This document shows, in pieces, positions 4,676-22,882 of a stretch of DNA of 64,000 nt. The notes beneath the pieces are model-generated. The model did no database searches and had not been told where the DNA came from. It worked only from the letters and a program-made list of their open reading frames with translations. The DNA lies in NCBI GenBank assembly GCA_947476195.1, contig CANJPT010000001.1:1-64000 (forward strand), read 5' to 3'. Each line of letters opens with the position of its first letter. The first letter of the stretch is position 1. Made by a program: the position numbers and the translations under genes. The DNA is from Lewinellaceae bacterium (GTDB taxonomy: Bacteria; Bacteroidota; Bacteroidia; Chitinophagales; Saprospiraceae).

Positions 4676-5023
4676 TTAGAGGTGCAGTCTTACTTTTCTT
4701 GCAAGCAACACCTCTTTTGATTCTACCCGATCAGGATCTGGCACACAACAATCCACGGGACAAACGGCTGCACATTGCGGCTCTTCGTGGAATCCGGTGC
4801 ATTCCGTGCATTTATCCGGTACGATATAGTAAAAATCGTTGGATACCGGACTAATTTTTTTTGCAGCATCCACCTTTTTCCCATCTTCTAGTTCATAAGC
4901 GCCTACTACGGTATTTCCATCGGAAATGGCCCATTCTACACCACCTTCATAGATGGCATTGTTGGGACATTCGGGTTCACAAGCACCACAATTGATGCAT
5001 TCATCGGTTATCAAAATTGCCAT
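4676..5023 (-). CDS. 2[4Fe-4S] ferredoxin
   Basis: This 115-residue soluble electron carrier has two four-cysteine clusters. The first is CINCGACEPECP near residues 9-20. The second begins KCTECTGF and continues CAAVCPVDCC, with a loop between its cysteines as in the ferredoxins usually annotated as 4Fe-4S dicluster proteins in Bacteroidota. The ATG at 5023 is chosen because an AAGGAGA ribosome-binding site lies about 8 nt upstream; the frame upstream has no ferredoxin character. A TACCTTTG element at 5084-5091 suggests its own promoter, so it need not belong to the adhesin operon that ends just upstream of it. The redox partner is unknown. Confidence 0.9.
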   Translation of the reverse strand: MAILITDECINCGACEPECPNNAIYEGGVEWAISDGNTVVGAYELEDGKKVDAAKKISPVSNDFYYIVPDKCTECTGFHEEPQCAAVCPVDCCVPDPDRVESKEVLLARKVRLHL

Positions 5024-5083
5024 ATCAAAATTCTCCTTTTTTACTTTTTTCTTGGAAACAACGTGGATTCCCAAAAGTTGGCG

Positions 5084-5091
5084 CAAAGGTA
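5084..5091 (-). promoter_or_regulatory. Bacteroidota -7 element for the ferredoxin gene
   Basis: On the minus strand this reads TACCTTTG, a perfect match to the TAnnTTTG -7 consensus, about 60 nt ahead of the start at 5023. No clear TTG -33 element is seen. Confidence 0.5.
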
Positions 5092-5161
5092 AAAAGACTT
5101 TGACGTTGGTCGTTTGATATGTATACACAAATCCGAATAAACCCCTTATCCATTCGTCCAA

Positions 5162-7477
5162 CTACTGCACTGCCCGTATAAAAGCGTCAATTTTAGCCTG
5201 TTCAAGTTGCCGTTTGAATGCAGCAGCTTCATTGCGCGTCTTAAATTTGGCAACACAAACTGAAAAGAAATTTGAATTTGGGAACTGAACTACTTCAGCG
5301 TCCTGATACCCCTGTTTCTGAATATTAACCCGTTGATTTTTGGCTCGGTCTTCAGAAAGGAATGATCCGGATATCACGTAATAAAAGTCATTGCTTGCAT
5401 TGGTGATCTTGACATTCCCATTATTAGCCGTTCCATTTCCTACGGATGGGGAAGGTTTTGTAGTTGAATTGCTACTATTTCCATTCGCAACGTTGTATCC
5501 TGCGTCACCCCCGAGCATACGAACCTCTGTTCTTCGGTTACGTGCATGTTCCGACTCAGCACATTTCACGCCATCACTGCAAGCGTTAAAAAGTTCACTT
5601 TCACCGAAGCCTATGGGCGTTAACCTGTTACGGGCAATACCATGGGCTACCAAATAGTCAAATACGCCATTGGCACGCCTTTGACTCAATCCTTGGTTAT
5701 ATTCAACCCTACCCCGGGAATCTGTATGGCTTCTGAGCTCGACCTTGATCAAAGGCTGCTGTTTCATCAGAGCCAAAAGAAGGTCAAGGTCTTTGCGGGC
5801 ATCTGGACGCAAAGTAGCGTCGTTGTAATTGTAGTATATATTTGGCAGTTCGATCACTGAACCTGGAAGTATCGGAGACACCGTAATATTCTGGTACATC
5901 GGCTTGTTGGGATCAGGCCAGCCATTGGTATTTACTTCAGTACTGCCAATAACACGGCCACCTTGCAGGATATCAATTTTATATTTTGAATTTATATTGA
6001 TATAGTGATCAAGGGTGCCATTCGCATCGGTAATGAGTGTATCTTTTACATCATTTTTGTTATCTGTGATGATCAGGGTTGCACCAGCAAGCGGAGCATT
6101 AGTGTTATAATTGAACACCGTTGGGATCCACTGTATTTTCCCCGGTCCAGCCATACTTGACTTTTCTAGTTGAACAGCCAGTTCGTTACCCGTCTTGGAA
6201 ATGGGCAGTCGGATCTGTCTGGTCTGGTAGCTCTTTTTCGTTATGATAATTACATAGTTTCCAGGTTTAACATCCGATCCAAACCGGCCTTTGCTATCTG
6301 TCATACCATTGATACCCTTGTCTGGAGGCATAGAGCCCATCACTTCTTTACCATCAATGGTTTGCACGGTAATGAGGTTTCCTTGTTCGTCTCGTCCGAT
6401 CACGTTGGTCCCGTCATAACTCAAAATCTGGATTTCCGCGTCTTTGATCGGTGCACTATTTAGCTTTTCTGTTACTACAATTTTCAGGTCAAGATTTCGG
6501 TCTGGCACACGTTTGTTTTGCAGCAGATAGTCGTCGAGATTTCCATTTTCTGTGTGAAAGTTAAAAATTTCGTCGCCGCCAGCCCCGGCTGCGCCATTGG
6601 TAGAAAAATAGCCGTTGATCTTGTTGAGGTCAACAATAAGTCCAAAATCATCTCCTGTCGTACTAAAAGGCTCGCCCAAATTGATCGGTTTGGTCCATTG
6701 TGAGCCTTCCGGGATAACATAATAGAGGTCTAAACCGCCTTTCCTATCTTCTTGACCATCAGAAGCAAAATAAAGGGAATTGTCTGAGTGAATGAAAGGA
6801 AATGCATCACGACCTGTTGTGTTGATCCCAGGGCCAAGGTTGACCGGCTCACTCCAGGACTCACCTACTTTATAAGAGACATAAAGATCCGTGCTCCCCA
6901 ATCCACCTGGGCGGTTAGAAGCGAAGTACAACTTATCCCCGTCAATGCTAATAGCCGGGTGGAAGTCGTCAAATTCATTGTTGTTAAAGGGCAGGGGTTC
7001 TGGTGCACTCCATACTCCATTGGTTTTTTTAGCACTATAAATACGCATTTTCTGCGTTTTATCCTTGGCTAACTTAACTTTCCCGCCAACGACGGTATTG
7101 CTTGAAAAGTAAACCGTTTCTGCCGTGCGGTCAAAGCAAACCGGGCCCTCATTGTCAACAGATGAAAGTTCTTTCGCGAACGGTTCTGGCGCACCAAGAT
7201 TCCCTTCTGCATCGCGGCGGGATCTAAGAATTGACATGGATGGCAATTTCAAGCCCTCGTCTGTCAATTTTTTCAAACCGGCTGTATTAGTTGAAATAAA
7301 AACAATACCGTCTTCATAAAATGTCGGGCTGAACTCCAGACCAGCGGTATTGATGGCTGCTTCGTTTTTCACCTGAACAGTCACTTGTACAAATGCTCCG
7401 GGTAATGTTTGCGCAGAAAGTGAAGCACAAATAAAGGCAAAACCGAAAACCAAGGTGATATGCTTAAAGGAATTCAT
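5162..7477 (-). CDS. OmpA/PD40/SPOR outer-membrane protein, PorE-like
   Basis: This 771-residue protein begins with a signal peptide ending near SLSAQ. PD40/WD40-like propeller repeats follow (about residues 40-260; VYFSSN, LYFASNRPGG and LYFASDG are visible). Next come two carboxypeptidase-regulatory-like beta-sandwiches (about 330-410 and 445-510), an OmpA peptidoglycan-binding domain (about 545-655, with IKVELRSHTDSRG and LSQRRANGV) and a C-terminal SPOR domain (about 695-771). PD40, regulatory-like and OmpA domains in this order are known from PorE/P60-type T9SS proteins. The added SPOR domain gives a second peptidoglycan contact. It lies directly downstream of porP/sprF and two giant T9SS cargo genes on the same strand, so it probably anchors that export complex (inference). 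The ATG at 7477 is chosen because the signal peptide starts there. Confidence 0.85.
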   Translation of the reverse strand: MNSFKHITLVFGFAFICASLSAQTLPGAFVQVTVQVKNEAAINTAGLEFSPTFYEDGIVFISTNTAGLKKLTDEGLKLPSMSILRSRRDAEGNLGAPEPFAKELSSVDNEGPVCFDRTAETVYFSSNTVVGGKVKLAKDKTQKMRIYSAKKTNGVWSAPEPLPFNNNEFDDFHPAISIDGDKLYFASNRPGGLGSTDLYVSYKVGESWSEPVNLGPGINTTGRDAFPFIHSDNSLYFASDGQEDRKGGLDLYYVIPEGSQWTKPINLGEPFSTTGDDFGLIVDLNKINGYFSTNGAAGAGGDEIFNFHTENGNLDDYLLQNKRVPDRNLDLKIVVTEKLNSAPIKDAEIQILSYDGTNVIGRDEQGNLITVQTIDGKEVMGSMPPDKGINGMTDSKGRFGSDVKPGNYVIIITKKSYQTRQIRLPISKTGNELAVQLEKSSMAGPGKIQWIPTVFNYNTNAPLAGATLIITDNKNDVKDTLITDANGTLDHYININSKYKIDILQGGRVIGSTEVNTNGWPDPNKPMYQNITVSPILPGSVIELPNIYYNYNDATLRPDARKDLDLLLALMKQQPLIKVELRSHTDSRGRVEYNQGLSQRRANGVFDYLVAHGIARNRLTPIGFGESELFNACSDGVKCAESEHARNRRTEVRMLGGDAGYNVANGNSSNSTTKPSPSVGNGTANNGNVKITNASNDFYYVISGSFLSEDRAKNQRVNIQKQGYQDAEVVQFPNSNFFSVCVAKFKTRNEAAAFKRQLEQAKIDAFIRAVQ

Positions 7478-7602
7478 GATTCTGAATTGATTATGTCGTG
7501 AAGTGATTATTTGGGTATTAAATTGGGGTTGAACAGATAATCCCGCGTTAGCTGCCGGGAAAAACCCGAAAACTGACCTTAAATGGATCATTCAAGCCCA
7601 CA

Positions 7603-8556
7603 TTACATGAAGAACCTTGCGTTCGTCTTTTTCTTTTTGCCAGCATCTACCTTTTTCAAATCATATTGCACCATCAACTCGAAAGAACCTGCATTATAGT
7701 CTTTCAGGTTGCTGAGGGTAAAATCGTAAGCTGCACCGACAGCAAACTGAGGTGCCAATTGCCATAAGGCCAGAAGATCAATTGAATCTCCAGGACCATC
7801 ACCACCAAGGCGGTACGAAATACCTGCGGTAAATCTTTTACGAATATCCAGATTCAAGTTGAAATCTGCGTCAAACGGAGCATTTTTTACATACTTCAAA
7901 AGAATCGCAGGCATCAGGCTAATATCTTCACTGATAGGCAGGATTGCACCAGCCATTCCATAAAAGTGCTGGTATTCTTTGGCCCCGATGCTCGCATTAA
8001 TATTAGACAATCCTATTGCATTGGAATATAAGTGTGGTACCGATACTCCAAAATAGAACTGTTGCATGATCGTGCCATATACCCCTGCTCCGACGTTTCC
8101 GTAAAAGTCATTTGTCTTTTGACTTTCAATGGAAAGATCTCCAATTTGACCTGGCTTTGCCTCGTTGAAGGCTATACCAAGCGAACGCAAGGATCCGGAC
8201 AGACCAATGCGAAGCGAGAAATTTTCCTGTGCTGCCATATCGTATGAATAGGCAACCGAAGCCTGAAAGTCGCGTTGCAAACCAATCCTCATGTTGGAAA
8301 TTGTAATGCCCCCCCCTACCCTGCGGGATAGTAGCGGCCCATTAAAACTGGCCAACATAGACTGCGGTGCACCATCAAAACCCACCCACTGACTACGGTA
8401 GATACCCGTCAGACTGGGCACTCCACGAGCTCCTGCATAAGCAGGGTTTATGTACATCTTATTGTACATGAACTGCGTGTATTGGGCTTCTTGCTGTGCC
8501 GAAAGTGATATGCAAGCTGCCATCAAAAGTGCGATAGAGATAATCAGTTTTTTCAT
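7603..8556 (-). CDS. PorP/SprF family T9SS outer-membrane protein
   Basis: This 317-residue protein has a signal peptide ending at SLSAQ, followed by the family hallmark QYTQFMYNKMYINPAYAG. The rest is a run of amphipathic beta strands typical of an outer-membrane barrel. PorP/SprF proteins are known to work with type B sorting-domain cargo, such as SprB with SprF, and are usually encoded next to it. Here the type B protein 8663-14080 lies immediately upstream and the OmpA/PD40 protein immediately downstream. The three fit a secretion and surface-attachment unit. Confidence 0.9.
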   Translation of the reverse strand: MKKLIISIALLMAACISLSAQQEAQYTQFMYNKMYINPAYAGARGVPSLTGIYRSQWVGFDGAPQSMLASFNGPLLSRRVGGGITISNMRIGLQRDFQASVAYSYDMAAQENFSLRIGLSGSLRSLGIAFNEAKPGQIGDLSIESQKTNDFYGNVGAGVYGTIMQQFYFGVSVPHLYSNAIGLSNINASIGAKEYQHFYGMAGAILPISEDISLMPAILLKYVKNAPFDADFNLNLDIRKRFTAGISYRLGGDGPGDSIDLLALWQLAPQFAVGAAYDFTLSNLKDYNAGSFELMVQYDLKKVDAGKKKKTNARFFM

Positions 8557-8613
8557 TGTAAAATTGAATTTAAAAGGTATCGGGGCTTGAAATGGTTCTA
8601 CTTACAGAAGAGC

Positions 8614-8650: not shown

Positions 8651-8662
8651 CTATCTCATAGA

Positions 8663-11600
8663 TCAACGGAATATTTCCACAAAACCCTTCATAGGAGCAA
8701 TATTCGGGCCAGGCTTAAAGATGTAGAAATACACCCCGTCTGGAAGATCCTTGCCATCCTGCCCTTCCAGTGTACCATACCAGGCTTTGGCAGGATCATT
8801 ACTATAGGGCGTTGCCTGATATACCTTATCCCCCCACTGACTATACACTACGATTGAATTCTCATTGAACAAGCCTGTATCGATACAAGGTATCGCAAGA
8901 AAGTCATTTAACGCATCATTATTAGGTGTGATGATGTTCGGGATAAAGATACACTTGGTGTCATTGATCGTGATCGTCACCGCTGCCTGATCAGACAAGT
9001 CGCAGGTTCTGGAACAAACGGTATAAAAGAACGAAACCATGCCAGGGATCTCACCTGCCGTGTATGTAAATGTCCCATCGCTATCGTTCATGACGAGCCC
9101 CCCCAAAACACTGATATCACAGATTCCAAAATCAAACGCCGGTGAAAGAATATCGTTTGTTAACACACTGGGGAAGGTGATCGTCTCCCCGGGATTGATC
9201 GAGTATGTCAAATCATTTACCGCTGAAGGCGGCAAGGTCAAATAGACAACTGCTGTATCCGGAGCCGTACTACAACCGTTCACAGTTGCCGTGACGCTGT
9301 AAGGTCCATCATTTTGTGTACTCAAGCTATTGATATTAACGACGTTTGTCGCAGAAGTCACAGGTCCTGTCCAGGTATACGTTGCGCCAGGGATACTGGT
9401 CGCTGTGATAGATACCGCCTCCCCTTCACAACCAGGGCTTGGGTCGACCACTGGGTCAAGCTGAGGCAATTCAACCACTTGAATAAATACTGCACACTGG
9501 GTGAGATTGCCTGAAGAATCTACTGCACGAAATAACAGGTTATTGAAGCCAATGGAGAAGGTCCCTCCGGAAACGGCACCTTCCAGTTGCGTCACCGTTG
9601 GGGTCACACAGTTGTCAGTGGCATTAGGCGCATTAAAGGTCAATTCTACTCCGCCACACCCGGTTATCGTATCAGAACTGATCAGGAAGCCACTTGGGTC
9701 AGAAATAATACCAGCACCCACATTTACAACGATCGGGCTGACGGGACAATTAAATACGGGTGCCACATCTTCCGAAACCGTCACATTGAAAGTAGCCAAT
9801 GCTGCGTCTCCGAGCGCGTCTGTTGCCGTGTAAGTTACGGTAGTTGTACCAAATGGGAAAATACTGCCAGAAGGTAAGGGTGAAACGGTAACCGTAACCG
9901 GTGGGCAAAAGTCAACCGGGATAGGCTCTGCCCAGGTAACCATTGTTTGACAAGTATTAATTGTAATATCCCCTGGAACGTTTGTAAAATGCGGAAAAAC
10001 GTTATTTATGACTTGAATTTCGCAATCAAGACTAACATTACCACTGGCATCAGTTACGATGATTACAAATTTGGTAATCCCGGCAGGGAAGGTATCTCCT
10101 GGCAGATAATTCGTTGAATAAATGAGGCTTGTTTCAGGCGTGCAGTTGTCCGAAGCCGTTGGAAGTGTCCAGATCGGCACTACCCCGCAAGGATTGGATA
10201 CCGGAACAGGAAGTGGTGCTGTTGGACAATCGATTATCGGCTTAACCACGTCAATTACCGACACATTAAAGGCACAGGTCGAACTGTTCCCGGAAGCATC
10301 CGTGACCGTATAGATCACCATCGTGTCTCCGGTCGTGAATAGGGAACCTGGTACAATATTGGAGGTAATGATTAATCCTCCCGCTCCACAGTTGTCCGAT
10401 ACTGTTGGTGGCAACCAACTCAGGATTGTATCACATTTAATTGCCGGAAGAAAGACCAGAATCGGAAGGGATGGGCAGTTGCTTAATACAGGTTTAGTAC
10501 TATCTGCTACGGTTACACTAAAGCTACAAGTCGTCGTATTACCAAAAGCATCGGAGGCTGTGTAGACTACGATATGGGGTGAATTCGCTACGTCAAAGAA
10601 AGTTCCGGATGCCTGTGTAACTACGAGCTTTACATTCTGATCACAATTGTCCAAAGTCAAGGGTGCTAACCAGGTTGGGTTAGCACCACAGTTACCACTA
10701 GACGAAACAATAGAAATATTCGCCGGACATCCATCAGGGAAGGAGGGTGCTAAAGCGTCTACTACCGTAATATTGAATAAACATTGACTTATGTTGCCAG
10801 CGTCATCCATAGCGGTGCATCCAACTTGTGTCACCCCTGAAAATACAGAACCGGATGGGTTGCTACAAAGGATCTCCACGTTCATATCACAGAAATCCGT
10901 AGCCACAGGAGTCACGAAATCCACTACAGAAGTACAGCCATTGATCGGCATAATGACCGTATCGGAAGGACAGGTCATGGTGGGCGGTGTTACATCCCTT
11001 ACCACTACGTCAAAAGAGCAGGTGGTCTGATTCCCGGACAGATCCTTTGCCGTATAACTTACCGTGGTAGTCCCTAAGTCGAACAAACCTCCGGAATCGA
11101 AGTCATTGGTGATAATCAAGGAAGCCGTCTGCCCACAAGTATCCTTGAAGGTAGGTGTCGTCCAGAATGCATTCGCCTGGCATAATGCATTAGCATCCAC
11201 CAGAATAGGGCTTACCGGACAAGTCACAATTTGCGGTGGGTTGTTCTCAAACACGGTCACTGTAAAAGAACAGGTTGTCGTGTTATTCGCATCATCTGAC
11301 ACGGTATAGGTCAAAGTCGTCGGCGGGCCAGCGTTAAATATCGTGGTACCCGGCGAAAGGACAACACTGGCAATGGCTCCACAGGCATCTGAAGCAGCAG
11401 GTGCTACAGGGATATAACTTGCACTACATTCAAGGGGTAGCGCGTTCACTACGGTATCAGCAGGACAAGCCACTACCGGAGGGACATTGTCTAAGGTAAA
11501 GACAAAAGCACCGTTGATTGGCAGCACTGCGACCGGGTCAAAATTGCCATCCAAGGCATCAAACGGACCTGTCAAGGACAGGTTGGTAGTTGCCAATGCA

Positions 11601-14080
11601 TTGACATCCAATACATTGAACGTAAGGGTCATAATAGCCGCACCATTGGGTACATTTGGCCAGGAAGGAGCCCCGCCAAAAAACGCAATTGTTCCATTGG
11701 CCGAATTGATAAAGAGTGGCGGTGGACCTGCTGTGATGAAGTTAATAGGAACCGGAAGCACAAGGCCCAAAACGAGCGGATCCCAGGCCAGGCCAAACTG
11801 CAGACCAACAATATTGTTAAAGTTTTCTACGGTCAGGTTTACCGTAATCTGTGTTGGAGCGCCCTGGCATCCCAAATCAACTGTATCCAGCTGCAAAATA
11901 AGTGGGTCGTCGGCGTTTACAACCACTTGAAAGGAACAAGTTGCGGAATTGCCACTACCATCCAAAGCCGTATAAACGACGGTGGTTGTTCCACCATTGT
12001 AATTGCCATTGGCGTTGCCATTCCCACTATTGGTAGTAGCCCCTGTCTGAGAATACGCAAGATCCGGTAATCCAACGCAATTGTCGGTCAATGTTGTCGG
12101 TTCGAGACCATTGACCGTAGCAAAAAGTTGTCCTTGTGGCGCATCAACGGTGATTGAAGGCGGGCATACAATCGTAGGCGGCACAATGTCAAGCACCGTG
12201 ACCAGCCCGTCAAAGGTCATCATCGGAATTTCATCAAAAGTACCACCGTCAAAAGCAACACGAATGGTCGGAAGATCCGCAAAAGTGATGCTTGAAGGTG
12301 AATTACTTAACAGGTCAAAATTCAGGGTAAAAAGCCGGTCTCCGTCATTTACAGAAGCACCATTCGGGTCGCTGCTTGTCCAGGCAAAAGTGATAAATCC
12401 AACGCCTACACTATCAACCCCGAAGTTGCTCAAGTTGATTCCAATCGGCAGGTTAAAATTGGAAGTAGAGGTATATTGATACAGCGAAGCATCCCATTTG
12501 ATGGTAAACTGAATGCCTGCAACGGTTGAAAAATTCAACGCCGTAATATCAACCCCAAAACCACCGCTACAAGCGGCGTTTGCATTATTGGCTATGATAG
12601 CCAGATCCGAGGTATTGATCCCAAATTCAACCGTAACATTGAAAGAACAGCTGGCCGTATTATTGCCAGGATCGGTCGTGGTATAGGTAACCGTATTGGA
12701 ACCGATATTAAACAGGGCATCACTTGCGTCCGCATCATTCGGGAAATTACCCGAAGTAGCACCCGAAACCGACCAGCCCACCTGAGCAACAGAGCAGTTG
12801 TCCATAACTACCGGAGCAATACCAGGTACAGGCGTTGGACCCGTAGCTAACACTGTAAGGTCTGCAGGACAAGTGATTGTGGGAGGCTGATTGTCCACTA
12901 CTGAAACCGTTGAGCCATAGGTAATGAGCGTTGTTTCATCAAAGCTAGGACCAATAAAAGCCAGTGCCTCCGTTGGCAAGCTGGCAAAGTTTACGGTTCC
13001 TGCACCCAGCGCTGTATAGTTCAGGGTAAACAATAACTCTCCGGCAGGCGCTGAAACGCCATTCAAATTTGCACTGGTCCATGCAAAGGAAAAGTACCCT
13101 AATGCGATAGAATCCGTATTGAAATTGATTGGTGTAATATTGAGCCCAGTATTTGTATTGGTGATCGAAACAAATTGGAGGGCAGCGGGAAGCCAGTCCA
13201 TCGAAAACTGTAATCCTGCAATGCTATCAAAATTGAAAGCCAGCACGTCAATCGTAACAAGTTCACCACAAGAAGGAAGATTGTTTGGATTGGCGATCAA
13301 GGTCAGGTCGGTCGTTGTAACGGAGTATTCAATCAGGATATTGAAAGAACAAGTAGCCGTATTACCGCCAGCATCTGTGGCTTTATAGGTTACGGTGCTG
13401 AAGCCAATATTAAATAAGGCTCCACTTGCATCAGCATCGTTGGGGAAGTTTGCTAAAGTTGCCCCAACAGAGGACCATCCCGCTCCGGGCGTACCGCAGT
13501 TGTCGGCTAAAACAGGCGCAATATTCGGAATAGCGGTCGGGCCGGATCCACCAGTCACTACACTCGCAGGACAGGTAATCATGGGAGCTGTATTGTCTAG
13601 TGCTTTAACCAGGCCGTTTTCTGTTTCAAAAAGCACTTCATTGAATTGGTTGTCAAAAACAGCAATAGCCGTTGGATCATCGACAAAAGAGAGTGATGCC
13701 GGAGGACCTCCAATTCTCTTGAAGGCTACTTTAAACAGAACTGTATTTGACGGAAGACTTAACCCCGCCACGTCGGTCCAGGCAAAAGTAAGTTTGCCAA
13801 GTGAGAGCGTGGCTGGCATAGTATCGAATCCCGCACCCATAAATTGGGGATGCAACATCGTCACATAGGCATAGTCCAGACGCGCTGTGTCCCATTGCAA
13901 CGTGAATTGCAAGCCGGATATATTGGTAAGATTATCCAGATAAACCGGGACAAGAAACGTATCCGGTGACATGCACGGAACTTCGATGATATCGGATCTA
14001 AGGATGACCGCTTGCGCCGAGGCTCTGTTTGAAAAAACCCCAGCCGTAAGCAGGAATAGGATTAAGAAAATATTTCTCAT
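8663..14080 (-). CDS. Giant cohesin-like/HYR surface protein with T9SS type B sorting domain
   Basis: This 1805-residue protein starts with a signal peptide (to about residue 23). Four cohesin-like modules follow (about 24-165, 253-397, 488-632 and 722-860), recognisable by repeated GLQFTLQWD/GLQFSMDW/GIQFTIKWD strands and FAWTS turns. HYR modules separate them. About eight more HYR modules run to residue 1540 (pattern PPxxxCP...DNC...GTTTVTYTATDxxGNxxxCSFxVxV). Then come an Ig-like module near 1547-1612, a cadherin/Ig-like module near 1615-1708 and a C-terminal type B sorting domain (FIPNIITPNNDALNDF...VYSQWGDKVYQ...DGVYFYIFK). The sorting domain sends it through T9SS to the surface. The ATG at 14080 is preferred over an in-frame TTG at 14095. 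Likely role: adhesion or scaffold. The cohesin assignment is by eye. Confidence 0.85.
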   Translation of the reverse strand: MRNIFLILFLLTAGVFSNRASAQAVILRSDIIEVPCMSPDTFLVPVYLDNLTNISGLQFTLQWDTARLDYAYVTMLHPQFMGAGFDTMPATLSLGKLTFAWTDVAGLSLPSNTVLFKVAFKRIGGPPASLSFVDDPTAIAVFDNQFNEVLFETENGLVKALDNTAPMITCPASVVTGGSGPTAIPNIAPVLADNCGTPGAGWSSVGATLANFPNDADASGALFNIGFSTVTYKATDAGGNTATCSFNILIEYSVTTTDLTLIANPNNLPSCGELVTIDVLAFNFDSIAGLQFSMDWLPAALQFVSITNTNTGLNITPINFNTDSIALGYFSFAWTSANLNGVSAPAGELLFTLNYTALGAGTVNFASLPTEALAFIGPSFDETTLITYGSTVSVVDNQPPTITCPADLTVLATGPTPVPGIAPVVMDNCSVAQVGWSVSGATSGNFPNDADASDALFNIGSNTVTYTTTDPGNNTASCSFNVTVEFGINTSDLAIIANNANAACSGGFGVDITALNFSTVAGIQFTIKWDASLYQYTSTSNFNLPIGINLSNFGVDSVGVGFITFAWTSSDPNGASVNDGDRLFTLNFDLLSNSPSSITFADLPTIRVAFDGGTFDEIPMMTFDGLVTVLDIVPPTIVCPPSITVDAPQGQLFATVNGLEPTTLTDNCVGLPDLAYSQTGATTNSGNGNANGNYNGGTTTVVYTALDGSGNSATCSFQVVVNADDPLILQLDTVDLGCQGAPTQITVNLTVENFNNIVGLQFGLAWDPLVLGLVLPVPINFITAGPPPLFINSANGTIAFFGGAPSWPNVPNGAAIMTLTFNVLDVNALATTNLSLTGPFDALDGNFDPVAVLPINGAFVFTLDNVPPVVACPADTVVNALPLECSASYIPVAPAASDACGAIASVVLSPGTTIFNAGPPTTLTYTVSDDANNTTTCSFTVTVFENNPPQIVTCPVSPILVDANALCQANAFWTTPTFKDTCGQTASLIITNDFDSGGLFDLGTTTVSYTAKDLSGNQTTCSFDVVVRDVTPPTMTCPSDTVIMPINGCTSVVDFVTPVATDFCDMNVEILCSNPSGSVFSGVTQVGCTAMDDAGNISQCLFNITVVDALAPSFPDGCPANISIVSSSGNCGANPTWLAPLTLDNCDQNVKLVVTQASGTFFDVANSPHIVVYTASDAFGNTTTCSFSVTVADSTKPVLSNCPSLPILVFLPAIKCDTILSWLPPTVSDNCGAGGLIITSNIVPGSLFTTGDTMVIYTVTDASGNSSTCAFNVSVIDVVKPIIDCPTAPLPVPVSNPCGVVPIWTLPTASDNCTPETSLIYSTNYLPGDTFPAGITKFVIIVTDASGNVSLDCEIQVINNVFPHFTNVPGDITINTCQTMVTWAEPIPVDFCPPVTVTVSPLPSGSIFPFGTTTVTYTATDALGDAALATFNVTVSEDVAPVFNCPVSPIVVNVGAGIISDPSGFLISSDTITGCGGVELTFNAPNATDNCVTPTVTQLEGAVSGGTFSIGFNNLLFRAVDSSGNLTQCAVFIQVVELPQLDPVVDPSPGCEGEAVSITATSIPGATYTWTGPVTSATNVVNINSLSTQNDGPYSVTATVNGCSTAPDTAVVYLTLPPSAVNDLTYSINPGETITFPSVLTNDILSPAFDFGICDISVLGGLVMNDSDGTFTYTAGEIPGMVSFFYTVCSRTCDLSDQAAVTITINDTKCIFIPNIITPNNDALNDFLAIPCIDTGLFNENSIVVYSQWGDKVYQATPYSNDPAKAWYGTLEGQDGKDLPDGVYFYIFKPGPNIAPMKGFVEIFR

Positions 14081-14136
14081 GGTGTTCAATGTCAAACTAT
14101 TAAAGATGGGGGTAATGCCTCGATAAATTTAAAGGA

Positions 14137-14172: not shown

Positions 14173-14182
14173 TACCCTAAAT

Positions 14183-17100
14183 TCAATCAATCAAAATCAT
14201 CTTCTTACGATCGCTGTGTTTAGGCGTTGCCAATTCGTAGTAGAAAACACCGTTTGAGCCGAAATCACTTTTCTGGAATGTGATGCTGTTTTTGCCTTCA
14301 GCAAAATCACCGATCACTGTTTTTACCAGCCGACCTTCTGCACTAAACACGCGTAAAGTTGCACGACCCGACTCAGGCAAGCGGAATGAAATGGTCGTTT
14401 GCGCTGTGAATGGGTTAGGCTGGTTTTGGAAGAGCGCAAAAGTTTTGCTTTCCAAATCGCCTGTAGCTACCGAAGCAACGAATTCAAAGCCAACCGCGAT
14501 AGCATTACCTCCTTCGTTGATCGCCAATGCTTCTGTAATCTCTGAACTACTTTTCAGCACCGCAGACAAGGTCGGAACAGATTTCAAAACCTTGAATGTC
14601 AGTGAGAACAATGTTTCGTCATCGTTGAATGAAGTAGGTTTGCCACCTACCCAAAGCGTACTGATCAAGCCGTCTGCAAGGTTGGCCGTTCCAAAATTAT
14701 CTTGCGTGAGGCCGGGCAAAACACCCGCCTGAATGTCTTGCAATTCAAACACTTCCGGATCAAATGCAATGGTCATCTGATATGCCTGCGCATTGATGAA
14801 GTCTTTTGCTTTAAACGGAATGGTGATCGTTTCACCAGCTTGTACGGCGCGCTCATCGAGACGGAACTTAAGGGCATCCGTAAATTCAGCTCCACCTCCA
14901 CCATTGGTCAGGGATGGTACCACCGAACCATTCACGTCGCCCATTAATACACCTGTAAAGTCATCACTCAGGAAGTCTGCCGCAACGTTATTGTGTGTAA
15001 TAAGTGACGGCGGCACAGGATTGTTGAGCGGATTCACTTGAGGTGCTGGTGGATTACCCATAGGCAAGGGTAAAAACACATGAGATGCAGCAATAAACTT
15101 CCAATCCGGTCCGACCTGATTGCCCTGGACGTTTGTAAAGTGTGGTGCATTGCCCAGTACATACCGCTGTACAAGTGCGTAGTCCAATAGATTTATCTTA
15201 AAGTCGCCGTTGATATCCGCAGCCACCCATTGGTAACCATTGGTGAAGGATACCTGCATAGCTGCGTGTGCCTGAATTCCAAGCATGTCACCTACATTGA
15301 TCTGCTGGTTTTTAACCGTAGCAATTTTAAAGGCCGAAACCACCGTGTTTGAACCCCCTTGAACTAAAAATCCGTAATCTGCAGTAGGTAATGCTGTCAG
15401 ATCCATATCAATGTTTGTACCCGCAAGGTCAACCGTAACACCAGGTATTGGCTTCGTAGGCGCCTTCCAGGTAAACACGTCACCGGATATATTGAGGTCA
15501 TTGGATGCAGGACAAGTAATGGTTGCCGAACCATTGTTGAAATTTACCATCGGTGCTTGATTTGTGCCGTCCTGTAAGAACACAAGCGCCGGCAAAGCAG
15601 AAGCAAGGATATTAACCGATGTTCCAACCGCTGCGGCACTAAGTTGAACTTGTAAATTGAACAACAGACTGCCATTCGGGAGTGTCGTAGGATTCAGGGT
15701 TGGGTGGGTCCAGAATACAGAACTTACACCCGGTACTAAACCGACCAAGGCTGGATTCAGATTGGTCAGACCCGTAATCGTCCCAATTACGCCATTGCTC
15801 AGCGCCAGACCCAGAGAGAACCCTGAAACATTGATAAAATTATCCACCGTAACTGGAATCGAGATCGTTTGGCCCTGACAACCGTTGCCGGTTCCAACCG
15901 TGATCGTGATTTTCGGACCAGCTTGTACGATAGCTGTATCTACAGCAATACATCCGCTGCTTACATCTGTCGCAGTTACCGTGTAGGTTCCTGCCGAAAG
16001 ACCGTTCAAATTAGCGGTTGTAGCCATGTTACTCCATTCATAGGAGAAGATACCTGACCCGCCTGTAGTGACGGTGGTTGCGGTTCCATTGTCCGCACTG
16101 AAGTATAATTCTGGCGTTCCGGATGCGCTGAGGATGAAACCTGTATTTACACCAAGCATCACCTGTACTTGTACGACACAGGAATTCGTATTCCCATAAA
16201 TATCCACTGCAGTCAAGCTTATGGTTTGTGTCCCAAGGTCGCCGCAGTCAAAGGTTGATTTAGATAGGAAAAGTGTATCTATAGAACAATTATCTGTGCT
16301 GCCAAGGTCAATATTGCTTGGATCAATGGTAGCTGAGCCGTTGGTCCCCAGTGAAATAATCACATTGTTATTACAAATCATCGTAGGTACACTATTGTCG
16401 ATTACACTGATGTTAATCGAATCAACACCTACATTACCACACACATCAATTGCTGCAAAGTATATCCAGTAGTTTCCTATCAGATAATCACCACTAATAC
16501 TAAAGGAATGATCCCCAAACGGACCATCATTCGTCACCAATAACAGATTGTCGGGCGTACAGTCTTCAAGGAATTGCGCCACGTTAAATACCAATGGTAC
16601 CGTACAGTTCTGGTTGGGTGGAAATTGAGACGTATTCAGTATAAGTGTATCTGGCATCCCTGCAAAAACAGGTTCTGTAACATCTACTACTTTAATCGTC
16701 CGGGCATAAACATTGGTATTACCACAGTTGTCTGTGGCCGTCCAGGTTCGCAGAATGCTATAATCAAACATACCGCAATCGCCCAATGCAACGGCAATCG
16801 TATCAACCGTCAGTTCGACCAAAACATCCGCATCACAGTTATCGGTAGCGGTCACAGGAATCACGGCAATGTTACCATCACTGCAACTTACTGTAACGTT
16901 TGGTGGAAGCACTGAAAAGACCGGCTTAATGGTGTCCTGAATACTGAGCAATTGGTCACAAGTAGAAACATTGTCAGCCAGGTCGACCACTTTCCATGTA
17001 CGGGTGAGCACCTGACAGATATTGCCAACGCCATTGCTAAGCGCGTCCGTGTGGGAAATAGAATCCACTACAATCAGACAGTTATCAGTAGCCGTAGCCT

Positions 17101-20100
17101 CTCCTTGTACCGTGGTGCTTAGATTATCGGTGCACTGAACCGTCTTGTTTGGTGGACAAGTGATGGTTGGAGCCACATTGTCCTGAATCACAATATAAGT
17201 CAGACACATGGACATATTGCCTGAAGCATCCGATACAAACAATTTAACCCCGTGCTGGGTCACTCCGTCTGCATCCGCACAATCGTAGGCAAGTGTAGTC
17301 GTAGGTGGTACCAATGGGCTTTGGTCCAGGCGTTGGATCAACAAGCCCAGATTGCTGGTGCAGTTGTCAAAACTGAAATTGTTGAATTGGTTAAACATCA
17401 CGTTCACGATGCCGGAAGGCTGCAAAGACGCGCTCACACCATTGATACAAACAGCCGTTGGAGGCGTAGCATCATTCACCTGAATAGTGACATTTTTGGT
17501 AGAACTGTTGCCACATTTGTCTGTGGCGGTAAAGCGTACCACATAAGTGCCAACAGGATAATCTGGCGCACTGATATTTGAACCAGACGGAATTACAAAC
17601 GTATTGCCCGGGGGAGCAGAAATGAGGGTATTCGTAATAGTAAGATCTGATGTCGATTCGCAATCTGCAACGTATGGCGCAATATTAAAGTTAACGGCAG
17701 CCTTGCAGTCCAGTGCATTCGGCGTCGTATTGCCGACAACCGTAGCTGGCGTATTTACGGCATATACAGGTGCTTGTGCATCGGAAACAACAATCTTCTG
17801 CGTACGGATAGCTGTGTTTCCAGCATCATCCATTGCCGTCCACTTTCTATTGATCAGATAGCTATATTTTCCGCAGCCAATGGTATCTATCGTGGAAGTC
17901 TCCACCAGGGAAATATCCACTAAAACATCACACTGATCGGTCGCAAACTGTGGATACGATGCAGCTGGCGGAATAGCCGCGCAAGCTTGTATAACAGTGT
18001 CCATCTGCGTTGCACTCCAGGTGCCTGCAAAAACAGGCTGGGTAACATCATGTACCGTTACCGTGGTCTGGAACGTGCCAATATTGCCATTGATATCCGT
18101 AACAGCCAGTACAACTGCATTTACGCCCATGTTAGCCAGATTCGAACAATCAAAATCCAGCGTGTCCAGATAAATATAATTCGGGCTTACACCGGTACGA
18201 ATAGAGATATCAACGGGGCCACAACCATCCTGGTCGTAACTACCATTATTCAATTGTACTGCTGTAATAAAGGCGTCGCCGGCTGCATCTAAGTTGATAT
18301 TGAGGGACTGGCCAATAGCGACCGGTGGCGTTAGATCCACTGAAATGATCACGTTTTGTGGCTGACTCGTTGTATTGTTCTCCGGATCTGTGTAGGACCA
18401 GTTGATCACATAGCTTCCTGGGTTCAGGACATAGCGTGGTGGGCCGCCAGGTACAAGCGGAGGCAATACCATCATTACAGGAACGGAAGGCGTGCCATAA
18501 ATGGTCACCAAGTCAGTGCCATTACAATCTGTAGCAGAAGGTGCCGTAACGGTCTCCTTGGTACAGTTGCTTACGATATCTCCCAGTGTGGTAATGACTG
18601 GCACCGGCGCTTGTCCATCTACAAGGGTGATATTAAAACTACATGGTGCCGACATTAAGTTATCAGGCATATTGTTGATGGCCTTTAAGGTTACAACAAA
18701 GAAGTTGCCCGGTGTTACAGGAATTACACTCGATACAAGTGCATTCGCAGGAGGCGTTTGGATAATCGTAACATCACTCAGACAGTTGTCAGATATGGAC
18801 GCAGGCGGGTAAGTAGGAACTTTAATATCTGCTGAACAACCTGCTGATACGGAGAGGTTCTGATTGCCCGGGCAAGTGATGCTGGGGGCTTGTGTATCTA
18901 TTATTTTAATAATGAAAGAACAAACTACTGGAGGGTTTGCACCCTGGGTAGCGGTGTAGGTAACGGTCGTTTCTCCAACAGGAAACTGTGCAATCACGGA
19001 GCCTCCAATCGCAGGAAGTGTAACCGGGAATGGATTGATCAAATTCACAAACGATTGAACCGACTGGTTATTGATGACCTCCGTAACTGTAAACGCACCA
19101 CAATCAGTGATATCAGTCAAGGAAGGACGAATCCAGGTAAACAATTGATCACAGTTGTTGGTCGTGTTTGGCAACGTGAATACGTCACCACAGATACCGG
19201 CAGGCGCCACTGCGTAATTGTTCATGAACACTGGCGACTGATTGTCTGTCACTATGATGGTGATGACTTTAACCGTTGGATTTCCACAGCCGTCGGTAGC
19301 CGTCAGCGTAACGATATTGGTGCCAATCGGAAAGCTGGAAACCGGAAGCGTATGGGTGCCCAAAGCAAAGGTCAGTACACCCGAAGATGGTGCACCAACT
19401 GCCGGGACCAGACTGTACGAGATTCCCGATATTCCATTGCAAGCATCCGTAATATCATTGAAGTTAACGACCGCTAAAGTGTAATTGCCTGTACAGCTTG
19501 ACGGACCTGATACGTTGACGTTCACGATTCCCGTTGGAAGGTAAGCCGCATTAAAAACCGGGCCTACAATATCCTGAACAGTGATCACCTGGCTTACCTG
19601 GATCGTATTGGATGGTACCGCATTGTCGGAAGCTTCCCAGGTGCGCGTGATGGTATAGGTGCAAAGTCCGGGACCAAAAGTCTGGCCCTTGTAGGTTACT
19701 GTTGCAGAACCACAGTTGTCCGTAGCCGTCGGGTTTGTTACTGGCAGGATCGCATCGCATGCCACTGTAACGTTTGCTGGAACACTCGCAAATACAGGTG
19801 GGGTAATGTCTTTTAAGGTTACCGTAAAGGCACAAAGGTTACTGATATTGGGGGTAGGCAATACCCCGTCTAAGGCACGGACCGTAACGTTTGTAACGCC
19901 CAGCGGAAATACAGGAATATTTGCAAGGTCGCCCCCGGCAAATGTGGTAAACGCCCCTGCGGGACTACCCAAAGCATATTGGTACGCACTTACAGTGCAA
20001 TTGTCGACCGCAGACAATGTGCCCGTCGCCGATCCCACACAAGAGGCAGGTGATGGAAGGACCGGAGTGAATATGGTAACATCGGACGGACAAGTGAGGA

Positions 20101-22882
20101 TAGGCGGCGTTATATCTTTCACCGTTACTACGCCGATGCAGGAAGACGGGTTACCTGCATCGTCCTGAATCTGTAAGGTGTAATTATTCGGGCCAATGTT
20201 AGCGCAAGTGTAGGTTGCATTACCACTTACATACGAATAACCACAGTTATCTGTGCTTGCATTGTCTATCTGTGCAGGCGTAACGACTACTGAGCCAGCA
20301 CCAATCGTGGCACTTAAATTTACCGTAATGTCTTTGCATTTGGCCACCGGAGCCTGGCTGTCCACAGCATGCACATTAAAGGTATAAGAATAAAGGTTGC
20401 CCGCTACATCCCGTACCAGGTAAGTTACAGGGCTTATGCCTCCGTTGTCCGCACTAAAAATAGTGACATTCGAAAAGGCAGATTGGGATATGATTGTAGC
20501 AGCCGAGCAGTTGTCTGAAAACAAAGGCGTACTCCAAATCGCTCTCGACGTGCAGGAACCAAGATTTGGCACATTGGCCAAAATCGTAGAGCCCGGTACA
20601 GGTCCGGGGTTAGGCCCTGCTGCATATTGAGGAGGCGTCTGGTCTTGTACGTTCACAGAGAAGTTGCAAATACCAATATTAGCGGAACCGTCTTTTGCCC
20701 GAAGCGTTACGGTGTTATTTCCCGCAGGGAATGTTACCCCACTTAAATCTACAGGCATCCCAACCGTAATGAGGGTTGGAGGAGAAAATGCAGCTCCGTT
20801 TATGGAATAATCAAAGGTTAGGCCACAATTGTTAAATGTATTGTCCCAGAATTCCTGTGGGCCAGGATTATGCGTGGCAGACTGATTGAAGATCAAGCCC
20901 GGCACATTTGCCGCACAGCTGTTTGCCGGGAAGTTTGGTACAACAAAAGAGGCCGGACATCCAATCGCAGGGGTGGAATTATCCAGCACATATACATTGG
21001 CCATACAAGTGGCCGAATTGGAGGCATTGTCTGTAACCGTCAAGGTAACCGTTTGATTACCCAGGGAATTACAGTTGAAGCTGGTCGGACTGACCGTCAT
21101 GGTTTTGATGCCACAATTGTCTGAAGAACCATTGTTGACCATAGCAGGTGTCACCACCGCTTGATTGATAAATGGATCCATCACTACGGTCACTGTACCA
21201 GGGATACAATTGGCTACCGGTGCTTCCAACTCTGAAACATTCACCGTAACCGTAATCGGTGTAGTGTTGCCATAAACATCTTCAACTTCATAGGTGATCA
21301 CCGTGGTTCCGACCGGGAAGTTTGCAGAAACGGGCGTTATCCGATGGAAAAAGTTATTGGGATCATACGGATAAGGGGTCACCCCGTTGGTGGTCAGAAA
21401 AGTCGGATCACTTACGCAGGAAAGACCAGGGCAGTTTATGGAAACTGTATCATTTTCGGTAAAACTTACAATCCAATTACAGTCGGATACATCATGCGTA
21501 TCCCAACTTGGACGGTACCAGGAAACATTTTGGGTGCAGGAACCCGGCGCCGTATTTACGTTAAAAACAGCCTGAAAATTGATACCAGAAGGATTCGGTG
21601 GCGGTATTAGCGTCACCGTAGGAGGGGTAACATCTTTAACCGTAACACTAAAGGAGCAAGTGGATACACGGGCGGCATTATCGGTTGCCGTCCAGGTTAC
21701 ATTCGTAGTACCCACGGTGAAGACTGCGGCATTCAGAGTATTTGTTCCCGTATAGTTATTCGATGGCAGGCCTGCCAAGGAACAGTTATCCGTAGCAGAG
21801 GCATTGAAAGAAGTACCCGAGACCGTGTAATCGCAGCTTGGAAGGCCAAGTGCATTCACCGTCTTATTAGAAGGACAAGTAATGACAGGATTGGTCTGAT
21901 CTGTTACGTTGACAGAATAGGAACAGCTTACAGGAGCATTCACGCCATCGGTGATGGTATACGTCACATTGGTGACACCCAATGGAAAGTTATACCCATT
22001 CAAATTACCCGGACCTGTTTTATTATTTGACAGCGATGCAAGCAAGGAAGCATCACTGGCGCAGTTGTCGGCAACCATCGCATCGGTAACACCCAATCCG
22101 GTACCGACCCATTGGCAGGACGCATTAGCAGGCGCATTGGGCGCTACTACATTCGCCGGACAAGTTATGGTTGGAGGCGTCGCATCGTTTACCGTGACCG
22201 TGAACGAACAGGATGCCGTATTCGGGGAAGGCAATGCCTGGTCGGCTACGTTCCATTTCACCGTGGTTACACCTGAGTTAAAGACCTTGCCATTAAGTGT
22301 TGCACCTCCTGAACCAGAGGTGGCGCCAGAAAGTTGGTAGGTTGGGATTGCAGAGCAGTTATCCGCGGTAGCCAGCCAATTAAATTCGGAACCAGCCGTA
22401 GTATATTTACAAGCGGCACCTGCATTGCGGATTCGGTTTGCTGGGCAAGAGATGGTAGGGGATATGTTGTCAATCACGTTAATCGTGATGTCAATAATGG
22501 TAGCACCAGGCCCCCCCCAAGTACTAATACCCCAAATAGGATCACCTCCGGCACGAATATGCCAGGTTGTAGAACCAATATCTGCGCAACCAAAAGTTAT
22601 GGGTGCAGCCAAGTAGGAGCCCAAATTATTCGGATCTGGATCGGACGAAAGCCACATACCGCAAAAGAAGTCACTTCCAACATAGAAGCCGGAACCATTC
22701 AGGATTGCATCGGTCAGGGTTACAAAGCCACCACCGCTCAACGTCATATTGATCGTAACTGGTCCTGAAGGAATAGTAGCAAAATCATCGCATTGCGCCT
22801 TTGCACCCACCATTGTGGCAAGCGTAAAGCACAGCACGAGCAGCCCTTGCGCCAATCGACGCGTAGTGGTTGAGATGTTCAT
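14183..22882 (-). CDS. Giant HYR adhesin with cohesin-like and dockerin-like modules and T9SS type A sorting domain
   Basis: This 2899-residue secreted protein has a signal peptide ending near GAKAQ and a unique N-terminal module to about residue 140. About 22 HYR or HYR-like repeats run from 141 to 2244, with the recurring pattern TPPxxxCPxN...TDNC...GTTxVTxTATD. One SprB-like repeat (near 2274-2312, LSAGTYTVTATD) follows, then a cohesin-like module (about 2317-2450) and a dockerin-like segment. The dockerin segment shows DINGDFKINLLDYALVQRYV near 2555 and a second, weaker GDVNGS loop near 2647. A second cohesin-like module (about 2677-2800) precedes a type A sorting domain (FQNQPNPFTAQTTISFRLPE...KKMILID). 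Type A domains direct export through T9SS with removal of the domain at the surface. The ATG at 22882 is chosen by the signal peptide. Likely role: surface adhesin or scaffold. The ligand is unknown. Confidence 0.85.
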   Translation of the reverse strand: MNISTTTRRLAQGLLVLCFTLATMVGAKAQCDDFATIPSGPVTINMTLSGGGFVTLTDAILNGSGFYVGSDFFCGMWLSSDPDPNNLGSYLAAPITFGCADIGSTTWHIRAGGDPIWGISTWGGPGATIIDITINVIDNISPTISCPANRIRNAGAACKYTTAGSEFNWLATADNCSAIPTYQLSGATSGSGGATLNGKVFNSGVTTVKWNVADQALPSPNTASCSFTVTVNDATPPTITCPANVVAPNAPANASCQWVGTGLGVTDAMVADNCASDASLLASLSNNKTGPGNLNGYNFPLGVTNVTYTITDGVNAPVSCSYSVNVTDQTNPVITCPSNKTVNALGLPSCDYTVSGTSFNASATDNCSLAGLPSNNYTGTNTLNAAVFTVGTTNVTWTATDNAARVSTCSFSVTVKDVTPPTVTLIPPPNPSGINFQAVFNVNTAPGSCTQNVSWYRPSWDTHDVSDCNWIVSFTENDTVSINCPGLSCVSDPTFLTTNGVTPYPYDPNNFFHRITPVSANFPVGTTVITYEVEDVYGNTTPITVTVNVSELEAPVANCIPGTVTVVMDPFINQAVVTPAMVNNGSSDNCGIKTMTVSPTSFNCNSLGNQTVTLTVTDNASNSATCMANVYVLDNSTPAIGCPASFVVPNFPANSCAANVPGLIFNQSATHNPGPQEFWDNTFNNCGLTFDYSINGAAFSPPTLITVGMPVDLSGVTFPAGNNTVTLRAKDGSANIGICNFSVNVQDQTPPQYAAGPNPGPVPGSTILANVPNLGSCTSRAIWSTPLFSDNCSAATIISQSAFSNVTIFSADNGGISPVTYLVRDVAGNLYSYTFNVHAVDSQAPVAKCKDITVNLSATIGAGSVVVTPAQIDNASTDNCGYSYVSGNATYTCANIGPNNYTLQIQDDAGNPSSCIGVVTVKDITPPILTCPSDVTIFTPVLPSPASCVGSATGTLSAVDNCTVSAYQYALGSPAGAFTTFAGGDLANIPVFPLGVTNVTVRALDGVLPTPNISNLCAFTVTLKDITPPVFASVPANVTVACDAILPVTNPTATDNCGSATVTYKGQTFGPGLCTYTITRTWEASDNAVPSNTIQVSQVITVQDIVGPVFNAAYLPTGIVNVNVSGPSSCTGNYTLAVVNFNDITDACNGISGISYSLVPAVGAPSSGVLTFALGTHTLPVSSFPIGTNIVTLTATDGCGNPTVKVITIIVTDNQSPVFMNNYAVAPAGICGDVFTLPNTTNNCDQLFTWIRPSLTDITDCGAFTVTEVINNQSVQSFVNLINPFPVTLPAIGGSVIAQFPVGETTVTYTATQGANPPVVCSFIIKIIDTQAPSITCPGNQNLSVSAGCSADIKVPTYPPASISDNCLSDVTIIQTPPANALVSSVIPVTPGNFFVVTLKAINNMPDNLMSAPCSFNITLVDGQAPVPVITTLGDIVSNCTKETVTAPSATDCNGTDLVTIYGTPSVPVMMVLPPLVPGGPPRYVLNPGSYVINWSYTDPENNTTSQPQNVIISVDLTPPVAIGQSLNINLDAAGDAFITAVQLNNGSYDQDGCGPVDISIRTGVSPNYIYLDTLDFDCSNLANMGVNAVVLAVTDINGNIGTFQTTVTVHDVTQPVFAGTWSATQMDTVIQACAAIPPAASYPQFATDQCDVLVDISLVETSTIDTIGCGKYSYLINRKWTAMDDAGNTAIRTQKIVVSDAQAPVYAVNTPATVVGNTTPNALDCKAAVNFNIAPYVADCESTSDLTITNTLISAPPGNTFVIPSGSNISAPDYPVGTYVVRFTATDKCGNSSTKNVTIQVNDATPPTAVCINGVSASLQPSGIVNVMFNQFNNFSFDNCTSNLGLLIQRLDQSPLVPPTTTLAYDCADADGVTQHGVKLFVSDASGNMSMCLTYIVIQDNVAPTITCPPNKTVQCTDNLSTTVQGEATATDNCLIVVDSISHTDALSNGVGNICQVLTRTWKVVDLADNVSTCDQLLSIQDTIKPVFSVLPPNVTVSCSDGNIAVIPVTATDNCDADVLVELTVDTIAVALGDCGMFDYSILRTWTATDNCGNTNVYARTIKVVDVTEPVFAGMPDTLILNTSQFPPNQNCTVPLVFNVAQFLEDCTPDNLLLVTNDGPFGDHSFSISGDYLIGNYWIYFAAIDVCGNVGVDSINISVIDNSVPTMICNNNVIISLGTNGSATIDPSNIDLGSTDNCSIDTLFLSKSTFDCGDLGTQTISLTAVDIYGNTNSCVVQVQVMLGVNTGFILSASGTPELYFSADNGTATTVTTGGSGIFSYEWSNMATTANLNGLSAGTYTVTATDVSSGCIAVDTAIVQAGPKITITVGTGNGCQGQTISIPVTVDNFINVSGFSLGLALSNGVIGTITGLTNLNPALVGLVPGVSSVFWTHPTLNPTTLPNGSLLFNLQVQLSAAAVGTSVNILASALPALVFLQDGTNQAPMVNFNNGSATITCPASNDLNISGDVFTWKAPTKPIPGVTVDLAGTNIDMDLTALPTADYGFLVQGGSNTVVSAFKIATVKNQQINVGDMLGIQAHAAMQVSFTNGYQWVAADINGDFKINLLDYALVQRYVLGNAPHFTNVQGNQVGPDWKFIAASHVFLPLPMGNPPAPQVNPLNNPVPPSLITHNNVAADFLSDDFTGVLMGDVNGSVVPSLTNGGGGAEFTDALKFRLDERAVQAGETITIPFKAKDFINAQAYQMTIAFDPEVFELQDIQAGVLPGLTQDNFGTANLADGLISTLWVGGKPTSFNDDETLFSLTFKVLKSVPTLSAVLKSSSEITEALAINEGGNAIAVGFEFVASVATGDLESKTFALFQNQPNPFTAQTTISFRLPESGRATLRVFSAEGRLVKTVIGDFAEGKNSITFQKSDFGSNGVFYYELATPKHSDRKKMILID

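Follow-up and report, generated by a model that had tools for sequence, protein, structure and literature searches.

A conserved pair of T9SS proteins with cohesins and a dockerin, a candidate hydrolase-free surface scaffold in Saprospiraceae

Type A T9SS proteins of P. gingivalis are linked by A-LPS (PMC9143113). The same paper reports a PorE-PorP-PG1035 complex recovered by pull-down from P. gingivalis, and proposes that PorP and PorE tether the non-mobile type B proteins to the wall (PMC9143113). In F. johnsoniae, Fjoh_3952 is described as static foci in imaging and as encoded with SprF-like and PorE-like genes (Fjoh_3952-3951-3950; PMC12618676). Cohesins have also been placed on T9SS cargo, since section 7 of PMC8542988 presents a predicted cohesin scaffoldin with a T9SS tail, found together with hydrolases, in Ca. 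Stygibacter (Cloacimonadota).

Here we describe a locus in a window of 64,000 nucleotides, the whole stretch of Lewinellaceae bacterium DNA that was analysed (Table 1). Its genes are transcribed from the minus strand in the order BIG, SMALL, PorP/SprF, PorE-like protein and ferredoxin. A sequence-only reading had proposed two giant surface proteins of 2899 and 1805 residues, and both their lengths and their coordinates fit the open reading frames. The BIG ORF (14183-23002) encodes 2939 aa and the SMALL ORF (8663-14095) 1810 aa; counted from their likely starts, M41 and M6, the proteins have 2899 and 1805 aa, and read by eye, an apparent signal peptide follows each start. Residue numbers refer to the full ORFs. 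The locus had been drawn at 4676-22882, and its PorP/SprF and OmpA/PD40/SPOR genes were recovered; the end at 4676-5161 is a ferredoxin and no obvious part of the system. This ferredoxin lies downstream of the PorE-like gene here and in 15/17 complete loci. It was excluded because no functional link was found despite the frequent synteny. In line with the earlier claim that hydrolases are missing, no hydrolase family scored above the Pfam cut-off within the locus. The sole hydrolase name was GH43 (12.9 bits, cut-off 32.2), on the PorE-like propeller.

Table 1. Features of the BIG-SMALL locus, by position in the window.
Feature	Position	Strand	Basis
BIG, giant T9SS protein with HYR array and C-terminal Coh-X-Doc-Coh-tail	14183..22882	-	ORF list, Pfam, orthologues
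BIG cohesin A, residues 2363-2511 of the 2939-aa ORF	15470..15916	-	AlphaFold and VIA, profile
BIG Ig-like (X-type) module between cohesin A and dockerin	15326..15439	-	profile; Coh-X-Doc alignment at high rmsd
BIG type I dockerin, residues 2563-2621	15140..15316	-	Dockerin_1 above cut-off, PDB profile matches, loops
BIG conserved post-dockerin segment (DWKF...GDVNG)	14930..15115	-	profile
BIG cohesin B, residues 2709-2842	14477..14878	-	Pfam Cohesin 44 bits, profile
BIG type A-like sorting tail	14186..14443	-	Por_Secre_tail below cut-off; fold like PorU 6za2 end
SMALL, type B protein of 1805 aa; four cohesins alternating with HYR, followed by an HYR array	8663..14080	-	ORF list, Pfam, orthologues
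SMALL cohesin 1	13613..14008	-	sequence profile; VIA Z 16.7 to 6kgf_C
SMALL cohesin 2	12911..13312	-	sequence profile
SMALL cohesin 3	12206..12610	-	sequence profile; VIA Z 17.1 to 6kgd_A; 40% identical to cohesin 2
SMALL cohesin 4	11510..11902	-	sequence profile
SMALL type B tail (CHU_C)	8672..8947	-	Pfam 65 bits
PorP/SprF-like outer-membrane shuttle and anchor	7603..8556	-	PF11751, 224 bits
PorE-like periplasmic anchor: PD40 propeller, carboxypeptidase-regulatory domain, OmpA, SPOR	5162..7591	-	Pfam
Ferredoxin	4676-5161	-	ORF list

The C-terminal part of BIG carries, in order, a cohesin (A), an Ig-like module, a type I dockerin, a second cohesin (B) and a type A-like T9SS tail. Pfam recognised Dockerin_1 (24.3 bits, cut-off 22.9), one stretch of Cohesin (cut-off 24.1) and 11 stretches of HYR. 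Cohesin A was missed by Pfam and recognised as a cohesin by its fold. An AlphaFold model of residues 2317-2939, built with 41 relatives, reached a mean pLDDT of 88.8 and a pTM of 0.60, and in it residues 2364-2498 superposed onto 4uyp_A (VIA Z 16.6, rmsd 2.2, 131 aligned). The cohesin-Ig-dockerin run aligned with 4fl4_I (Z 15.2, 226 aligned, rmsd 15.5) and 3kcp_A (Z 15.0, 230 aligned, rmsd 16.7), chains of the Coh-X-Doc end of CipA; the PDB profile search lists 3kcp_A as Cellulosomal-scaffolding protein A. The large rmsd values indicate that the domains of BIG are arranged unlike those of either structure. A profile of the region matched solved dockerins and cohesins in the PDB, among them the dockerin 4uyp_B (2.1e-8) and 3l8q_A (1.2e-8). 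The dockerin fold is assigned from the Coh-X-Doc alignment and sequence profiles, and cohesin B from Pfam and a sequence profile. When 19 reversed proteins were searched with six BIG-family profiles, no match reached domain E<=1, indicating that the profile matches are not due to composition. A Pfam match and a cohesin fold thus confirm cohesin domains in BIG, and the two cohesin-like modules and dockerin first read there hold up. The dockerin, supported by Pfam and by matches to solved dockerins, was placed imprecisely: it covers the span in Table 1, and a degenerate first repeat precedes the segment originally quoted. The conserved segment that follows it recurs in 11/13 dockerin proteins tested (E 0.011 or lower).

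In SMALL, Pfam found Cohesin in four stretches (58 bits), 11 HYR stretches and CHU_C, matching the four cohesin-like modules interleaved with HYR of the earlier description. The AlphaFold model of residues 24-860 had a pLDDT of 82.5 and a pTM of 0.38, with parts of module 4 weak. Cohesins 1 and 3 were matched to solved structures, whilst cohesins 2 and 4 were assigned by sequence profiles. Over both proteins, three of six cohesins were matched to solved cohesins via the AlphaFold models (Z 16.6-17.1), the rest being assigned by sequence; the structural check proposed with the sequence-only reading is therefore in favour for the modules compared with solved folds. The top Foldseek match of the SMALL model was the neck of the Aureispira grappling hook GhpA (9flp_A, E 3.9e-17). 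Kinship with this hook was rejected, at 13% identity and an rmsd of 94.7 to 9flp_A, and GhpA chains were absent among the sequence matches listed. We take the similarity as a generic run of beta-sandwich beads.

The number of cohesins in SMALL varies: the window and four relatives have four, the remaining 18/23 loci three. Together with the identity between cohesins 2 and 3, the four cohesins in 5/23 loci point to a cohesin-HYR duplication; cohesin 3 and its HYR are likely a copy of cohesin 2, confined to the four-cohesin loci. By eye, cohesin 4 resembles the last cohesin of three-cohesin orthologues.

Both proteins carry T9SS tails, as expected from the export route first suggested, and the difference in tail type is an addition to that suggestion. 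The tail of BIG scored 24.5 bits against Por_Secre_tail, below the Pfam cut-off of 27, and 98 bits against a tail profile built from the family, with BIG among its members. In the AlphaFold model it folds like the last part of PorU 6za2 (VIA Z 9.9, rmsd 2.6 over 87). By its tail, BIG is a candidate type A T9SS cargo. SMALL has the make-up of an anchoring module, with a type B tail and adjacent PorP/SprF and PorE-like genes. By analogy with the P. gingivalis and F. johnsoniae modules, it looks anchored to the cell wall.

The gene pair is conserved. When the C-terminal 623 residues of BIG were compared with 24 congeners, a full-length match was found in 19, and a SMALL match adjoins BIG in 19/19 of these; the search of related genomes for this gene order, proposed with the sequence-only reading, thus found it conserved. 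The remaining 5/24 are draft genomes, in which loss and a missing contig are indistinguishable. Loci were fetched from the 19 congeners and G035 (n=20). SMALL follows BIG in 20/20, and SprF and PorE come next in 17/17 loci whose contig continues; three end inside SMALL. The named genome collection returned 56 loci, 30 of which (L081-L110) match nearly the whole query, and a SMALL match lies beside BIG in 26/30. Among the others, L089, L102 and L104 are additional copies, the pair being present elsewhere in the same genomes, and L108 is truncated by a contig end. The L081-L110 records are all metagenome-assembled and are labelled Saprospiraceae, Saprospirales, Chitinophagales, Bacteroidetes or Bacteroidota. 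Second copies of BIG in G007, G009 and G022 are without SMALL among the matches listed beside them.

We tentatively favour, at somewhat below even confidence, a conserved hydrolase-free cohesin-dockerin surface scaffold of T9SS-secreting Saprospiraceae, in which SMALL is the anchored socket and BIG is docked. SMALL would be exported as type B cargo and passed to its own PorP/SprF barrel, and the PorE-like protein, by analogy, may tie it to peptidoglycan. Its three or four cohesins would then be fixed sockets on the surface. BIG would be exported as type A cargo, its dockerin docking, in a presumably calcium-dependent manner, on a cohesin that most likely belongs to SMALL. Once docked, BIG may extend its long HYR array away from the surface and so serve as an adhesin or matrix arm. 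The sequence-only reading had pictured two adhesins that bind each other and form a self-assembling fibre. That picture is partly supported, by the modules, the tails, the lack of hydrolase matches and the gene order; mutual binding of BIG and SMALL and their assembly into a fibre are putative. From the analogous modules, SMALL would belong to a static complex anchored to the wall rather than to a free fibre.

To place the pair in context, cohesins and dockerins were inventoried across genomes. In its own genome, Pfam gave 13 cohesin and 10 dockerin matches. A family-built dockerin profile matched 13/19 own-genome proteins tested and, in the stretches examined, 14 ORFs. Ten of these 14 also carry a cohesin, which counts against a simple pairwise fibre and makes cis or other partners possible. 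The other four are without a cohesin by profile, one being truncated at a contig end. No hydrolase family matched at E<=0.01 in the 12/14 own-genome dockerin ORFs scanned, BIG included.

The wider sample comprised the own genome and 7 congeners, in stretches around the cohesin matches listed (at least 151). ORFs were classed by profiles, with a tail called at 8 bits or more and own-genome members included in the tail profiles. Across the eight genomes there were 78 dockerin ORFs, a number that under-counts dockerin proteins without cohesin because congeners were sampled by cohesin. Of these, 75 were type A (75/75 callable), two uncalled, one cut and zero type B. The 46 rows of dockerin-free cohesin ORFs (true count 45, as G007 C1:1955001-1962821 is the front of a dockerin ORF also counted) comprised 23 type B, 14 type A, four uncalled and five cut. 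Two or more cohesins were present in 23 dockerin-free ORFs, namely 15 type B, two type A, three uncalled and three cut. Type B thus accounts for 15/17 callable dockerin-free multi-cohesin ORFs, and each of the 15 has SprF no more than 3 kb downstream; these rows fall into two sets of orthologues, the SMALL family (8 genomes) and the C22b family (7 genomes), so the counts are by no means independent. A third orthologous family (C48) makes up the 8 type B rows with a single cohesin. The own genome has 46 CHU_C tails over the cut-off against at least 150 type A tails (150/293 candidates scored), and type A is therefore expected for most proteins. The notable part of the tail table is type B among the dockerin-free arrays.

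Two further type B cohesin families are conserved in these genomes. The second locus (L046, own genome C22:38860-45825) begins with a type A protein of 296 aa and one cohesin, followed by a 1661-aa protein bearing three cohesins, SprB repeats and CHU_C and then by SprF; the same small and large pair is found in G005, G007, G008, G021, G022 and G035. The third family (L049, own genome C48:22259-27052) is about 1600 aa long, with one cohesin, SprB repeats and CHU_C, and SprF was absent within 3 kb downstream in the 8/8 genomes examined. With 46 type B tails and 13 PorP/SprF matches in the own genome, type B proteins outnumber shuttles.

We also compared the divergence of the BIG dockerin with that of the cohesins over 23 loci, removing overall divergence via PorE and SprF distances. 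The test was post hoc, designed after the pairing idea, and is exploratory. As controls, 18 non-cohesin windows of BIG and SMALL were used, which are not independent of one another. The dockerin gave a residual r of 0.47 with BIG cohesin A, 0.37 with cohesin B, and 0.45, 0.47 and 0.48 with the first, second and last cohesins of SMALL. The control windows had a mean of 0.14 and a maximum of 0.40, and the X module, post-dockerin segment and tail of BIG itself gave 0.24, 0.25 and 0.22. The Mann-Whitney p was 0.0001 for the five cohesins and 0.0008 for SMALL's three, and over 14 settings it stayed at 0.0075 or lower and 0.0173 or lower, respectively. Some other parts of BIG also exceeded all 18 of their own controls: the X module with SMALL's second and last cohesins (0.43 and 0.42), the post-dockerin segment with the second (0.46) and the tail with the first (0.42). 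The dockerin signal is thus not unique, only more uniform, with a mean over the five cohesins of 0.45 against 0.25, 0.24 and 0.21 for X module, post-dockerin segment and tail. An initial test with the SMALL HYR block in the control gave 0.35-0.45 for the cohesins and the same tail exception. With the four-cohesin clade removed, some single cohesins fell to 0.24-0.30, under the highest control of 0.42. In a 14-genome subset with all loci, own-locus cohesins gave 0.55, 0.34, 0.39, 0.60 and 0.36, against 0.20, -0.06 and 0.21 for the C22b cohesins and -0.28 for the C48 cohesin. The 19 controls of this subset had a mean of 0.17 and reached 0.62 at most; single own-locus values therefore lie inside the control range, and up to 5/19 controls equal or exceed them. 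Co-divergence leans towards dockerin-cohesin pairing at the BIG-SMALL locus, as a sequence-based lead, not proof.

The dockerin might instead act in cis or between like copies, an explanation we consider rather unlikely. Paired with the cohesin just C-terminal to it or with cohesin A, it would make an intramolecular clamp or head-to-tail polymers; it would be a general C-terminal module of type A cargo, and the cohesins of SMALL would bind other ligands. Such an arrangement is consistent with the architecture of these proteins. A cohesin lies C-terminal to the dockerin in 10/13 own-genome dockerin proteins tested (profile E<=1e-9), and order-wide 25/150 dockerins among the matches listed have a listed cohesin 190-292 bases C-terminal. 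Within the genus, many of the BIG C-terminus matches among those listed extend from dockerin to tail, and the dockerin co-diverges with cohesin A too. However, cohesin B, the neighbour on the C-terminal side, is the weakest of the five in co-divergence and is matched or exceeded by 3/18 controls. The own-genome dockerin ORFs without a cohesin also speak against action in cis, which moreover leaves the dockerin-free cohesin arrays beside BIG unexplained.

The state of the calcium loops bears on a second alternative, that cohesin and dockerin folds are mere structural beads or spacers in long surface proteins and have lost mutual binding. The BIG dockerin has an intact second loop and a degenerate first loop. 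Among 80 dockerin segments, the full set of four calcium ligands occurs in 1/70 first loops found and 67/75 second loops found, in a motif search that read a few sequences wrongly and located no loop in some others. The decay of the first loop fits loss of binding, and cohesins also occur outside cellulosomes, 2xdh for one bearing the title non-cellulosomal; the second loop is nevertheless intact in most segments. Dockerins and cohesins also co-occur over the order's genomes: among the matches listed, 36 genomes have both, of 69 with dockerin and 46 with cohesin in 149 (p 1.6e-7), and outside the family the p is 0.007. With the co-divergence signal as well, we find loss of mutual binding quite unlikely. 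A single intact calcium loop, like the second copies of BIG listed without SMALL, was counted against docking of BIG on SMALL.

In cellulosome work, dockerin loop positions 10-12 choose the cohesin partner. Among 63 non-BIG dockerins with both loops found, these positions read TYD or TFD in 33 for loop 1 and TFD in 33 for loop 2, a pattern seen in 0/7 BIG dockerins with loops found. That SMALL serves as a general socket for many other dockerin proteins rather than mainly for BIG, as the many dockerin ORFs and few type B cohesin arrays might suggest, is very unlikely given the adjacency of BIG and SMALL in congeners and the deviation of the BIG dockerin from a pattern that about half of the others share in each loop.

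The favoured reading of an anchored SMALL with BIG docked on it may be one case of a broader arrangement, which we offer as speculative and somewhat unlikely. Cohesin-dockerin pairing would provide a second, non-covalent hold for type A T9SS cargo. A few type B cohesin proteins (the SMALL, C22b and C48 families) would act as fixed sockets, and two of these families have a SprF of their own. Type A proteins with dockerins, up to dozens of them, could plug in, giving an enzyme-free, exchangeable and modular adhesive coat. BIG and SMALL would be one dedicated pair in it.

These results bear on the role of non-cellulosomal dockerins and on the retention of type A T9SS proteins outside P. gingivalis. 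If type B sockets do hold dockerin-bearing type A proteins, two classes of T9SS cargo form one assembly, and cohesin-dockerin scaffolding reaches from enzyme complexes to an adhesive surface. No paper on the BIG-SMALL locus was found in the literature searched, which covered few subscription journals, and neither was the hydrolase-free combination of cohesin arrays on SprF-linked type B proteins with dockerins on type A proteins.

The locus shares with the Clostridium thermocellum cellulosome the cohesin and dockerin modules, the Coh-X-Doc order and an anchored multi-cohesin protein. It differs in having no hydrolase family above cut-off in the locus, in its T9SS tails and HYR arrays, and in that most dockerin ORFs of its own genome also carry a cohesin. 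Identity with a cellulosome was rejected, as hydrolase matches were absent from the locus and from the dockerin ORFs scanned. Peer et al. in 2009 reportedly described non-cellulosomal cohesin and dockerin modules, the shared feature being cohesins and dockerins outside cellulosomes.

The Ca. Stygibacter scaffoldin is likewise a large T9SS-CTD protein with tandem cohesins, accompanied by separate dockerin proteins, but there the dockerins are attached to hydrolases and peptidases, and CBMs occur on the scaffoldin; section 7 does not describe a type A/type B split (PMC8542988). The closest modules in gene content, PG1035-PorP-PorE of P. gingivalis and Fjoh_3952-3951-3950 of F. johnsoniae, likewise combine type B cargo, PorP/SprF and a PorE-like protein (PMC9143113, PMC12618676). 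Compared with those accounts, the PorE-like protein here has SPOR and is without a TPR match in Pfam, the type B cargo is a cohesin array, and a dockerin-bearing giant protein is encoded directly upstream of it.
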